This document shows, one piece after another, positions 48,713-56,010 of a stretch of DNA of 64,000 bases (positions are counted from its first letter, which is position 1; each line of letters opens with the position of its first letter). Location of the stretch: contig WYBC01000017.1 of NCBI GenBank assembly GCA_011526085.1, positions 186,001-250,000 on the forward strand, in the 5' to 3' direction. A program made the position numbers and the translations under genes. Source of the DNA: Lysobacter sp. Its GTDB lineage: Bacteria > Pseudomonadota > Gammaproteobacteria > Xanthomonadales > Xanthomonadaceae. Below the pieces are notes generated by a model, which was not told the origin of the DNA, did no database searches, and worked only from the letters and a program-made list of their open reading frames with translations.

Positions 48713-48936
48713 GGCGATCGCTCCGGAATGACCTTCCGCCATTGTCGGGAACGATCCACGGCCGCGGTATCGCCCGGATGGGTTAGCCCACAGGGTGGGA
48801 TGAGCGCACCCTGCGAGCTTCATCGCGGCGGTGGCTTACGCGCCATCCAGTGAACGGAGACGGATCGGCCGTAACGCGCGTGAACGGGGAAGAGGCGACC
48901 GAGTTGTCGCTGCGGCGGTATGCGTACAATTCGGCC

Positions 48937-50853
48937 ATGACCGCCACGCCGCCCGCCACGCCCCAGGTTCCCGGCTACACGATCATCCGCCACCTTGCGC
49001 GCGGCGGCATGGCGGAAGTCTTCGTGGCCGAGCAGATCGCGCTGCAGCGGCCGGTCGCGCTGAAGATCCTGCGCATGGCCGAGGCCGGCGGCGCGGATGC
49101 GATCGAGCGCTTCGAGCAGGAAACCCGCCTGATCGCCGAACTCAGCCATCCGAACATCGTCGGCATCCACGACGTGGGCCACAGCAGCGACGGCGCCCTG
49201 TATTACGCGATGCCCTTCCTGCCCGGCGGCGATCTGACCGCGAGGCCCTCGCCGCGTCCCCTGGCGGAAATCCGCAAGCTGCTGGCCGCACTGCTCGATG
49301 CGCTGCGCTATGCACACGGCAAGGGCATCGTGCACCGCGACATCAAGCCCGCGAACGTGCTCTTCGACGAGCACGGCACACCGCAGCTGGCCGATTTCGG
49401 CGTCGCTCTCCGCACCGTGAACAGCGAACGCCTGACGCAGGTGGGCCTGACAGTCGGTTCGACCGGCTACATGAGCCCCGAGCAGGCGCGCGGGATGCCG
49501 GTGGATGCGCGCTCGGATCTGTACAGCGTGGGCGTGCTCGCCCATGAATTGCTGACCGGCGGTCTGCCGTTCCGCGGCAACGACGCGGTGGAGATCGCGA
49601 TCGCCCAGATGGAGCAGAAGGTCCCGCGCCTGCCGAAGGACCGCGCGCACTGGCAGGGCTTCATCGACAAGGCGCTGGCGCGCCAACCGGCGCAGCGCTT
49701 CCAGACCGCGATGGAGATGGCGACGGCGCTCGCCCGCATTCCGGAGGCACCGCCGCTGATCGCGAACCGCAGGCTGGCGGTCGCGGCGGTGGCCGGTGCG
49801 CTGGCGCTCGGACTGGCGACGTGGGCGCTGTGGCCCGGCGCCAAAAAGATGACCGCGGCCGAGATCGACCGACTGATCGCCGCCGATCGCCTGCTGCCGC
49901 CGGCACGTCCGAATGCGCTGGACGGTTTGATCGCGGCACCGGAACAGGCGGAATTCGACCGGCTTCGCACCCGGCTGAAGGACACCTTGCGGCGGCGGGC
50001 GCTCGCGGCGATCGATGCGCGTCGCTGGAGCGAGGTCGAGCGCCTCTACACCGGTTGGCACGACGCCAGCGTGCGCCTGGGCAGCGCGCCGGCGACGCGG
50101 GCCGGGGTGGCGAAGCATCTCGACGGCGCGCTCCGCGCGCAATTCGATGCGGCGATCGCGGCCTACGATCGAAGCGTCGCCGAGCCGGCGTTGCCGCTGT
50201 TGCGGCTGATCGAGCAGCCGAGCGCAGGGTTGGCCGGGCGGCGGGACCTGCTGCTGCAAATTCCCCGGCGCGCCGAGGGCATCGTCGATGCCGACGGCCC
50301 CCGGCTCGGCGTGGTCAAGGCGCCGAGCTACACCGGCAAGGGCATGGCGGTCGGCGTGGCGCCGGTCAGCGCCGCGCTGTATGCGCGTTATGCCAAGGCG
50401 ACGGGACGCAAGCCCGCCGACTGCGAAGGCGATGCCGCGACGGCCACCGTCGCGCGCTGCGTGACCCATGCCGACGCCAGGGATTTCGCGCGCTGGTTCA
50501 GCGAGCAGAGCGGCCAGCGCTATCGTCTGCCCAGCGTCGCCGAGTGGGCGGCGGCCGGCGACCAGGGACTGGCCAACGAAGGCCCCGCCATCCGGGTCTG
50601 GAGTCGGGATTGCAGGACCGTGCGCACCGTGCACCGGCCCAACGCGGTGCGCCGCGGGCTGGGCAAGGTCCGCGAGGTCTTCGGCGGACGCGGCGCGGCG
50701 GTCCAGGTCTCGCAGAACTGCGCGGGACAACTCAGCCTGAGCCCGCTCGGCACCGATGGCGCGAGTACCGCACACCCGGCCGGCCTGCGTTCGGCCGGGA
50801 TCGGCATCGGCCTGGTCCGGGACATCGCCGCGTTGCCCAGGCCGGCGGACTAG
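48937..50853 (+). CDS. Membrane Ser/Thr protein kinase with C-terminal SUMF1-like domain
   Basis: A 638-residue Hanks-type kinase: Gly-rich loop LARGGMAEVF (20-29), catalytic Lys43, HRDIKPAN (133-140), DFG (153-155) and MSPEQARG all intact. One membrane helix (about 279-300) separates it from an extracytoplasmic part: a helical region (305-445) and a degenerate formylglycine-generating-enzyme/SUMF1-like domain (about 463-638, with PVSAALYARYAKATGRKPA, RYRLPSVAEWAAA and the final GIGLVRDI). The ATG at 48937 starts just before the kinase domain; the frame extends to 48850 without support. The TAG stop is part of the terminal CTAG of the repeat at 50850. Substrate unknown; likely a sensor kinase at the membrane. 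Confidence 0.88.
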   Translation: MTATPPATPQVPGYTIIRHLARGGMAEVFVAEQIALQRPVALKILRMAEAGGADAIERFEQETRLIAELSHPNIVGIHDVGHSSDGALYYAMPFLPGGDLTARPSPRPLAEIRKLLAALLDALRYAHGKGIVHRDIKPANVLFDEHGTPQLADFGVALRTVNSERLTQVGLTVGSTGYMSPEQARGMPVDARSDLYSVGVLAHELLTGGLPFRGNDAVEIAIAQMEQKVPRLPKDRAHWQGFIDKALARQPAQRFQTAMEMATALARIPEAPPLIANRRLAVAAVAGALALGLATWALWPGAKKMTAAEIDRLIAADRLLPPARPNALDGLIAAPEQAEFDRLRTRLKDTLRRRALAAIDARRWSEVERLYTGWHDASVRLGSAPATRAGVAKHLDGALRAQFDAAIAAYDRSVAEPALPLLRLIEQPSAGLAGRRDLLLQIPRRAEGIVDADGPRLGVVKAPSYTGKGMAVGVAPVSAALYARYAKATGRKPADCEGDAATATVARCVTHADARDFARWFSEQSGQRYRLPSVAEWAAAGDQGLANEGPAIRVWSRDCRTVRTVHRPNAVRRGLGKVREVFGGRGAAVQVSQNCAGQLSLSPLGTDGASTAHPAGLRSAGIGIGLVRDIAALPRPAD

Positions 50854-51103
50854 AGCGTGTTATGCACTTTTTGATAGGCCGCGAAGGTCGTCTGCGGGCC
50901 TGAGCCAAGGCGCGCGCCGCGGCCAAGGCTGGTGGCCTTGGCAAGGTGCGCAACGCCGGATCGGGCCCGCAGACGGCCTTCCCTCCGGGTTGCGCCCCTG
51001 TGTCGCCGATCCTGCGGCCCGTGGCTTCCCTTGGCCACCAAACCTTGTCTCGGCGCCACAGGCTGCGCAACGCGACCTATCAAAAAGTGCAAACACGCTC
51101 TAG
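50850..51103 (+). repeat. Structured repeat element, copy 1 (254 bp)
   Basis: Flanked by CTAG and bounded by near-perfect terminal inverted repeats: CTAGAGCGTGTT plus TGCACTTTTTGATAGG at the left (50850-50878, with one extra A) and the exact complement at the right (51076-51103). Inside are two long hairpins: 50884-50900 with 50964-50980 (17 bp, one G.T) and 50989-51008 with 51051-51071. About 92 percent identical to copy 2 by eye. No transposase or convincing ORF. The left CTAG supplies the stop codon of the kinase gene. It fills most of a 393-bp gene-free gap; the remaining 143 bp (51104-51246) show nothing beyond the next gene's leader. MITE-like or RNA-structured element. Confidence 0.9.
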
Positions 51104-55737: not shown

Positions 55738-56010
55738 CTAGAGCGTGTTATGCACTTTTTCATGTGCTGCGAAGGCCGTCTGCGGGCCTGGGCCAAGGCG
55801 CGCGCCGCGGCCAAGGCTGGTGGCCTTGGCAAGGTGCGCAACGCCGGACCGGGCCCGCAGACGACCTTCCCTTCGGGTTGCGCCCCTGTGGCGCCGATCC
55901 TGCGGCCCGCGGCTTGCCTTGGCCACCAGCCAAGGCTGCGCCACGGAACCTTGTCCCGGCGCCACAGGCTGCGCAACGCGGCATATGAAAAAGTGCATAA
56001 CACGCTCTAG
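55738..56010 (+). repeat. Structured repeat element, copy 2 (273 bp)
   Basis: Second copy in the same orientation as copy 1, again bounded by CTAG. The terminal arms CTAGAGCGTGTTATGCAC then TTTTTCAT(G/A)TGC pair over about 34 positions with two G.T wobbles. The same two internal hairpins are present, the second now fully paired (CCTGTGGCGCCG / CGGCGCCACAGG). About 20 extra bases lie in the apical part of hairpin 2 (around 55928-55948). With the 108 bases from the rimO start to 55737, where I see nothing else clear, it fills the 411-bp gap between rimO and the dienelactone-hydrolase gene, ending 30 bases before that ATG. Confidence 0.9.

Follow-up and report, generated by a model that had tools for sequence, protein, structure and literature searches.

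The window, the whole 64,000-nucleotide stretch of Lysobacter sp. DNA analyzed here, carries two copies of a short repeat in which terminal inverted repeats enclose two hairpin halves. Copy 1 abuts the end of a long open frame. The features are as follows.

48850 to 50853, + strand: 667-aa open frame running into copy 1, its TAG stop being the TAG of the element's left CTAG
50850 to 51103, no strand assigned: copy 1, 254 bp long against 273 bp for the full element, with 18 nt gone from the second hairpin and 1 nt from the right arm
50851 to 50879, + strand: left terminal arm of copy 1, TAGAGCGTGTTATGCACTTTTTGATAGGC, its outer 14 nt being those of the 863-bp IS5-family elements of relatives
50880 to 50983, + strand: first hairpin half of copy 1, B type, CGCGAAGG..., covariance-model match of 88.3 bits, E 9e-18
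50981 to 50989, no strand assigned: centre of copy 1, CCCTCCGGG, the element's dyad
50987 to 51074, - strand: second hairpin half of copy 1, A type, CGCGTTGC..., shortened, covariance-model match of 28 bits, E 0.0018
51075 to 51103, - strand: right terminal arm of copy 1
55738 to 56010, no strand assigned: copy 2, full length at 273 bp, missing here in nine of the nine genus relatives that yielded both flanking anchors
55768 to 55871, + strand: first half of copy 2, B type, 81.3 bits, E 4.1e-16
55875 to 55980, - strand: second half of copy 2, A type, 49.4 bits, E 1.5e-8

The initial annotation had described a repeat at 50850-51103 with CTAG bounds and 28-bp arms that pair except for one bulged A, and this was correct, with the arms folding as 12 bp, the bulged A, and 16 bp. 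It had taken that repeat for the full unit, however, and copy 1 is really a deletion variant, 18 nt plus 1 nt shorter than the other complete copies; the A is bulged because the single nucleotide is missing from the right arm. The highly similar second copy that it reported is the one at 55738-56010, which is 87% identical across 273 aligned columns. Two long internal hairpins are indeed present, but both are longer than the 17 and about 19 bp originally given, as each consists of a roughly 20-bp outer stem followed by a conserved internal loop and an inner hairpin. The computed folding energy of copy 1 is -175.7 kcal/mol, against a shuffle mean of -107.0 (SD 5.3, n = 200; z = -12.96). The three-way junction first proposed was incomplete, as a CCC-NNN-GGG mini-hairpin at the centre makes a four-way junction possible; the minimum-energy fold includes this mini-hairpin as a weak two-pair form, and the centroid lacks it. 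The picture of a three-way junction in a single odd repeat was replaced by one of two inward-reading halves around a central CCCNNNGGG.

The CTAG at the edge of the element provides the TAG stop codon of the 667-aa frame (window 50851-50853). The translation of that frame contains HRDIKPANVLF and DFG, and we take its product to be protein-kinase-like. Coincidence of an element's start with the stop of an upstream frame can happen where CTAG is the target. Open frames that cross the copies look incidental, and the element seems to be without an evident protein of its own.

TA or CTAG is found at both element ends. In the nine relatives, the anchors that flank the copy 2 site are spaced 149-271 nt apart, where 162-169 nt is expected without the element, which indicates a missing element rather than a base-exact empty junction; no anchors for this site were found in the tenth genus relative, G006. 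A copy search in the source genome and its relatives, as the initial annotation had advised, found further copies in both. The source draft genome (4.2 Mb, 48 contigs) holds five complete copies, two one-hairpin derivatives of about 150 bp, eight copies cut at contig ends, and a degenerate remnant on contig C35. Eight contig ends (C5, C11, C12, C15, C19, C20, C24, and C34) lie in or within about 60 bases of element copies. Thus, the element probably breaks the assembly, and copy counts are lower bounds. The element is shorter than 500 bp, lacks a transposase, has terminal inverted repeats, and is present in multiple dispersed copies, as is a miniature inverted-repeat transposable element (MITE). 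Rfam 15 found only two tRNAs above the gathering score in the window, with nothing at the element, and had no match at nine divergent element loci.

Two halves around a common centre

The element consists of two hairpin halves in inverted order, both read inward to the central CCCNNNGGG near the midpoint. Each half runs from the terminal arm through CGCG, the outer stem, CAAGGCG, the inner hairpin, and CAACGC to the other side of the stem, and most of the halves printed measure 133-135 nt when the arm is included. Within one element the halves are not alike in sequence and are called A and B types. Under an A rule that was devised after the elements had been viewed, and with B meaning "not A," exactly one half fits A in 56 of 56 parsed elements (L059 and L153 form one record); seven of the 63 elements were left unparsed (L152, L164, L180, L185, L186, L191, and L045).

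R1 is a covariance model built for one half; its calibration was brief, and its E values are rough. Its 238 matches fell to 207 after the removal of overlapping opposite-strand ones; 39 halves were unpaired, and the fetched loci gave 84 paired loci, in 79 of which the halves are exactly 3 nt apart. Among 80 distinct elements, the centre is CCCNNNGGG in 71 and the core is 205-219 nt long in 74. Fifty-one of the 80 could be bounded by TA and have a median length of 270 bp, a few of these lengths beginning at an inner TA, and the other 29 were not boundable under the rule used. A divergent half in three genomes (L051 1580-1682, L052 1576-1677, and L053 1576-1677) has a frame of GCAAGGAAGA...GATGACGC where the inner part would normally be. 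Genome G186 holds full-length copies, a 154-bp one-hairpin form, and elements of 53-55 bp (L135 201-253 and L136 201-255) that resemble just two terminal repeats facing each other.

Terminal repeats, IS5-family partners, and distribution

The end CTAGAGCGTGTYATG is present in 22 of 247 family genomes, the source genome included, and in at least three of those 22, such ends are spaced 863 bp apart. Translation of an 863-bp copy gave a 277-aa IS5-family transposase (NF033580; PF13340 and PF01609). A second end type belongs to an 826-bp insertion sequence (IS) in a genus relative, the ends of which, TAGGGCCTGTTAACAC and TAGGGCGTGTTAACAC, resemble those on the cores of L063, L070, and L265 and the transposase of which is 25% identical to that of the 863-bp IS. 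We presume that these IS5-family partners are IS427-like. The initial annotation had allowed that a match to the ends of a known insertion sequence might reduce the repeat to a deletion derivative. The ends do match IS5-family elements, but the interior does not appear to be derived from one, because the best R1 match in 13 loci with IS5-type transposases had an E value of 0.08 and lay outside the IS. The source draft genome (G000) had no match to the 863-bp IS transposase at E 0.001, and no relative of an IS5-type transposase was found in G008, which also carries the element. Thus, mobilization in these two genomes may be past, may have been externally supplied, or may depend on a gene in an assembly gap. 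The 241-244 bp "elements" of G198 have a run of N between IS-like ends and were not counted as MITEs, and the 1091-bp element of G255 contains unresolved bases and a duplicated stretch.

At least a dozen different terminal repeats, several of them alike, are found on the core. They include TAGAGCGTG, TAGGGCCTG, TAGGGTCTG, TAGTGGGCC, TAGTGTCCT, TAGTGTACC, TAGGAGCCT, TAGGGGGCG, TAGGGACTC, TAGGGGCTG, and TAGTGCCATG, among others. In genome G018 (L052, L063, and two elements in L070), pairs with cores 89-92% identical have outer repeats that are 50-59% alike, where random 22-mers average 46% identity with a 95th percentile of 56%. Cores are at least 70% alike in 282 element pairs, and in 21 of these the outer repeats are no more than 60% alike. 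Near-identical cores with different ends, together with a second IS type that has such ends, indicate that the core has been joined to the ends of different transposases. Because the same core carries the terminal repeats of different transposases, it is the core and not the ends that defines the lineage. We consider both the structure and the exchange of ends to be well supported. The element is like IS5-family MITEs in having terminal inverted repeats in common with IS5-family elements, TA or CTAG at its edges, and no evident protein, and it is unlike them in that its interior is a conserved two-half structure and in that one core occurs with many terminal repeats.

The distribution of the element reaches far beyond what the window alone would suggest. 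When one genome per species was scanned for two ends 218-248 bases apart, 54 elements were found in 53 stretches, and the core is present in 49 of the 54, 48 of them parsed by the centre (one base changed in L170) and the last, L185, counted in on the strength of two model matches. The core was carried by Xanthomonas, Pseudoxanthomonas, a Lysobacteraceae isolate, Paracidovorax, Acidovorax, Delftia, Xylophilus, Vandammella, Allofranklinella, Lautropia, Herbaspirillum, other metagenome-assembled genomes (MAGs), and an uncultured Verrucomicrobium MAG for which a binning error is possible. Pseudoxanthomonas wuyuanensis is an example of a host with many copies. Five of the 54 (L152, L164, L180, L186, and L191) have other interiors under the same ends, and only L164 has a half at E ≤0.01, a single weak one at E 1e-4. 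These five come from MAGs labelled Chthoniobacterales/Chthoniobacter, Rhodobiaceae, and Anaerolineae; their length is similar, and some look palindromic.

R1 matched at E 0.001 in 100 of 299 genomes sampled from the order and at E 1e-5 in 50 of 398 genomes sampled from the phylum; per-genome copy numbers are lower bounds, with at most 13 (order) and nine (phylum) candidates scored per genome. Separate scans applied R1 to 56 sources (398 kb), to 57 sources, and to the 13 IS loci. In the 398-kb scan, one match at E ≤1e-5 lay away from known elements (L150 4219-4325, E 1.3e-6). Phages gave no match for two element queries, viral contigs gave none to the end pattern, and plasmids gave none for the window's own element. 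A Pseudomonas aeruginosa plasmid, that of PA83, carries a sequence 75.5% identical to the L275 element between two co-directional genes. Sequence matches on plasmids of Azotobacter, Halomonas, Variovorax, Pseudoalteromonas, and Photobacterium have no annotated feature beneath them, and this missing annotation says little, because three of the six records opened have three features or fewer.

Conservation of the fold and its possible causes

The initial annotation had called the interior hairpins conserved, and this is borne out by strong covariation that keeps the structure across terminal-repeat families and genera. In a structure-blind MAFFT alignment of 36 halves (A2), 92.9% of cells were paired; shuffling lowered this to 50.9% and sliding to 33-45%. 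All 18 outer-stem pairs in A2 changed on both sides, but this count alone is weak because shuffles average 16.5 and 15 of 500 reach 18; it is the paired cells that carry weight. A second structure-blind MAFFT alignment (A3, 18 of the 36 A2 sequences) had changes on both sides in 25 of 30 pairs. A further alignment, A5, was fitted to the model; its 106 distinct rows, most of which carry other terminal repeats, were 96.0% paired against 54.6%. A2 holds 36 of 43 representatives, as four were omitted for misplaced starts and three by choice, and six halves with deletions or inversions were dropped before alignment. In 103 model matches, most outer-stem letters are less than 60% conserved, and in the loop region C-A-A-G-G-C is conserved at 96-100% except for one position at 80%, and A-A-C-G at 91-99%. 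The loop figures are partly circular because the matches came from a model built on those motifs; the same positions are prominent in A3, which was made without the model, and some A2 halves deviate. Thus, the interior is conserved by shape, with stems that vary with compensation while the CAAGGC and CAACGC loop motifs and the length of about 270 bp are kept.

A strand test was made with orientation set by geometry (inward) and with arms aligned under an equal penalty for G·T and A·C. On the inward-read strand, with one half taken per cluster, the outer stems of 94 clusters had 108 G·T pairs and 18 A·C mismatches, with left and right halves separately giving 59 versus 8 and 49 versus 10. The result depends on arm alignment, and sets found by the model may favor G·T, but a set chosen by its end pattern or its resemblance to the window copy is independent of the model; its 110 halves gave 171 G·T versus 27 A·C, or 29 versus 10 when one half was taken for each of 27 clusters (pooled P = 0.0034; sign test P = 0.031). 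A further 99 halves with other ends gave 125 versus 11. Counted over whole arms, the model-free set instead had more A·C than G·T (307 versus 251; one per cluster, 73 versus 46), because A-rich internal loops enter as A·C; that count mixes internal loops with stems and was set aside for the outer-stem count. Mismatches flanked by Watson-Crick pairs were 190 G·T versus 31 A·C (one per cluster, 34 versus 12). An excess of G·T over A·C in inward-read outer stems suggests that each half has been selected as a folded single strand, and it is also compatible with C-to-T change on a transcribed strand, that is, with strand-biased mutation. The initial annotation's proposal of a role for the RNA or the cruciform gains support from this asymmetry, and RNA and single-stranded DNA are not separable on these data.

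Neighboring genes showed no excess of reading into the element. With a codon-trained caller that was itself trained on four genes, 48 sides read in versus 62 out, and 46 versus 61 and 36 versus 53 at rising margins, a bias that is not significant (P = 0.09-0.22). Gene pairs around the element at margin 0 were in-in in 6 cases, in-out in 24, and out-out in 13. An earlier caller based on GC at codon positions had put 85 sides away versus 46 in (P = 0.0008), and it was discarded because it confused sense and antisense frames in GC-rich DNA.

We think it likely that the element represents a superfamily of MITEs in which the IS5-type ends are exchangeable and the structured core is selected as a folded single strand, probably RNA. 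IS5-family transposases would recognize the ends, move the element in trans, and insert it at TA, often CTAG. Each half, from terminal repeat to central CCCNNNGGG, would be selected as a folded strand in the inward reading, and the RNA would most likely be made as transcription runs into the element from a flanking gene; with entry possible from either side, the first half met would be the correctly oriented one. The core would outlive its ends, rejoining the terminal repeats of other transposases. We lean modestly toward action of the core as RNA rather than as single-stranded DNA. As a guess, the hairpins may protect against read-through or decay, whether of the element or of the host transcript, or a host protein may bind the CAAGGC/CAACGC loop.

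A function at the level of DNA is possible, and we rate it below the reading just given. A transposase or host factor would form a complex with two-fold symmetry on the inward strand, folded as single-stranded DNA, or on extruded hairpins, and the fixed distance from end to loop would reflect that complex. The dyad symmetry and the use of the same strand at each end are consistent with such a complex, as are halves of mostly 133-135 nt and a total length that is near constant despite different ends. G·T is also better tolerated than A·C in DNA. No partner is known, however, the 13 IS loci examined were without the hairpins, and IS5-family transposases are taken to act on double-stranded DNA. 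We doubt that the element is simply an RNA 3'-end element, whether a bidirectional terminator or an mRNA stabilizer, that settles after stop codons. The inward-read hairpins are very stable, copy 1 starts at the stop codon of the upstream frame, and genes that read inward stop close by (median distance 27 nt, measured to a point lying 14 nt within the estimated edge), but no T run follows the hairpin in the sequences read, gene orientation has no 3'-end preference, and the element of the PA83 plasmid lies between co-directional genes.

How imperfect palindromes stay paired could also be explained by mutation alone, if the hairpins are inert and template switching during replication re-perfects them such that the arms change together without selection. 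Template switching does seem to occur, as the 5' inner arm of one half (L181_a, L181 7-276) is a copy of the 3' arm, and the inner part of another (L192_b, L192 7486-7757) is inverted, with a second R1 match in L192 on the unexpected strand. By eye, however, only two of 112 halves look template-switched. Moreover, such correction would erase the loop-region motifs, which are highly conserved (in part imposed by the model, yet also seen in A3), the length stays at about 270 bp, and the G·T/A·C strand asymmetry is unexpected from a process that acts alike on both strands. Upkeep by mutation alone is therefore unlikely. Least probable is a plain IS5-type MITE, a deletion derivative with an interior of no consequence; the ends match IS5-family elements and derivatives of 53-55 and about 154 bp exist, but the structure is conserved across terminal-repeat families and genera and no core was found in the IS loci examined.

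The preferred reading, of a structured core with borrowed ends, has partial parallels among known repeats. REPINs pair inverted REP units, with hairpins predicted in single-stranded DNA or mRNA, as a single mobile unit (PMC3116915), and REP units are described as 20-40 bp with GTAG or CGTC tags (PMC3733652). The element is likewise two inverted hairpin units moving as one, but its units are about 105 nt rather than 20-40 bp, and, unlike REPINs, which are probably moved by RAYT, it has long terminal inverted repeats in common with IS5-family elements. Read by eye, the halves begin with CGCG and show no GTAG or CGTC tag beside a 20-40 bp hairpin. The R families of Pseudomonas fluorescens, QMITE2, and BOX are also small, non-autonomous elements with transcripts predicted to fold stably (PMC2718517, PMC10969869), R2 being 110 bp with 43-bp repeats (PMC2718517); the portions of these sources at hand mention no covarying interior with exchanged ends for them. 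No description of the element was found in the open-licence literature searched, and an exact-letter search with the ends and one core motif returned titles on other subjects, including a Komagataeibacter paper with GGGCCTGTTAAC.

By its sequence, we consider the element a MITE with a structured core and exchangeable ends that is new as a variant, and the role of the core is a proposal. Whether it also represents an undescribed class of mobile element seems to us evenly balanced; the heritable unit would be an inward-facing folded RNA or single-stranded DNA core that swaps ends, moves between transposases, and parasitizes many insertion sequences across the Pseudomonadota and possibly the Verrucomicrobiota. 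MITEs are largely defined and searched for by their ends, and thus a lineage whose interior stays while its ends change would be easily missed. Should the core prove functional, one could test whether a working RNA or DNA structure can belong to a non-autonomous element, beyond its borrowed ends, and how such a core gains a new matched pair of ends.
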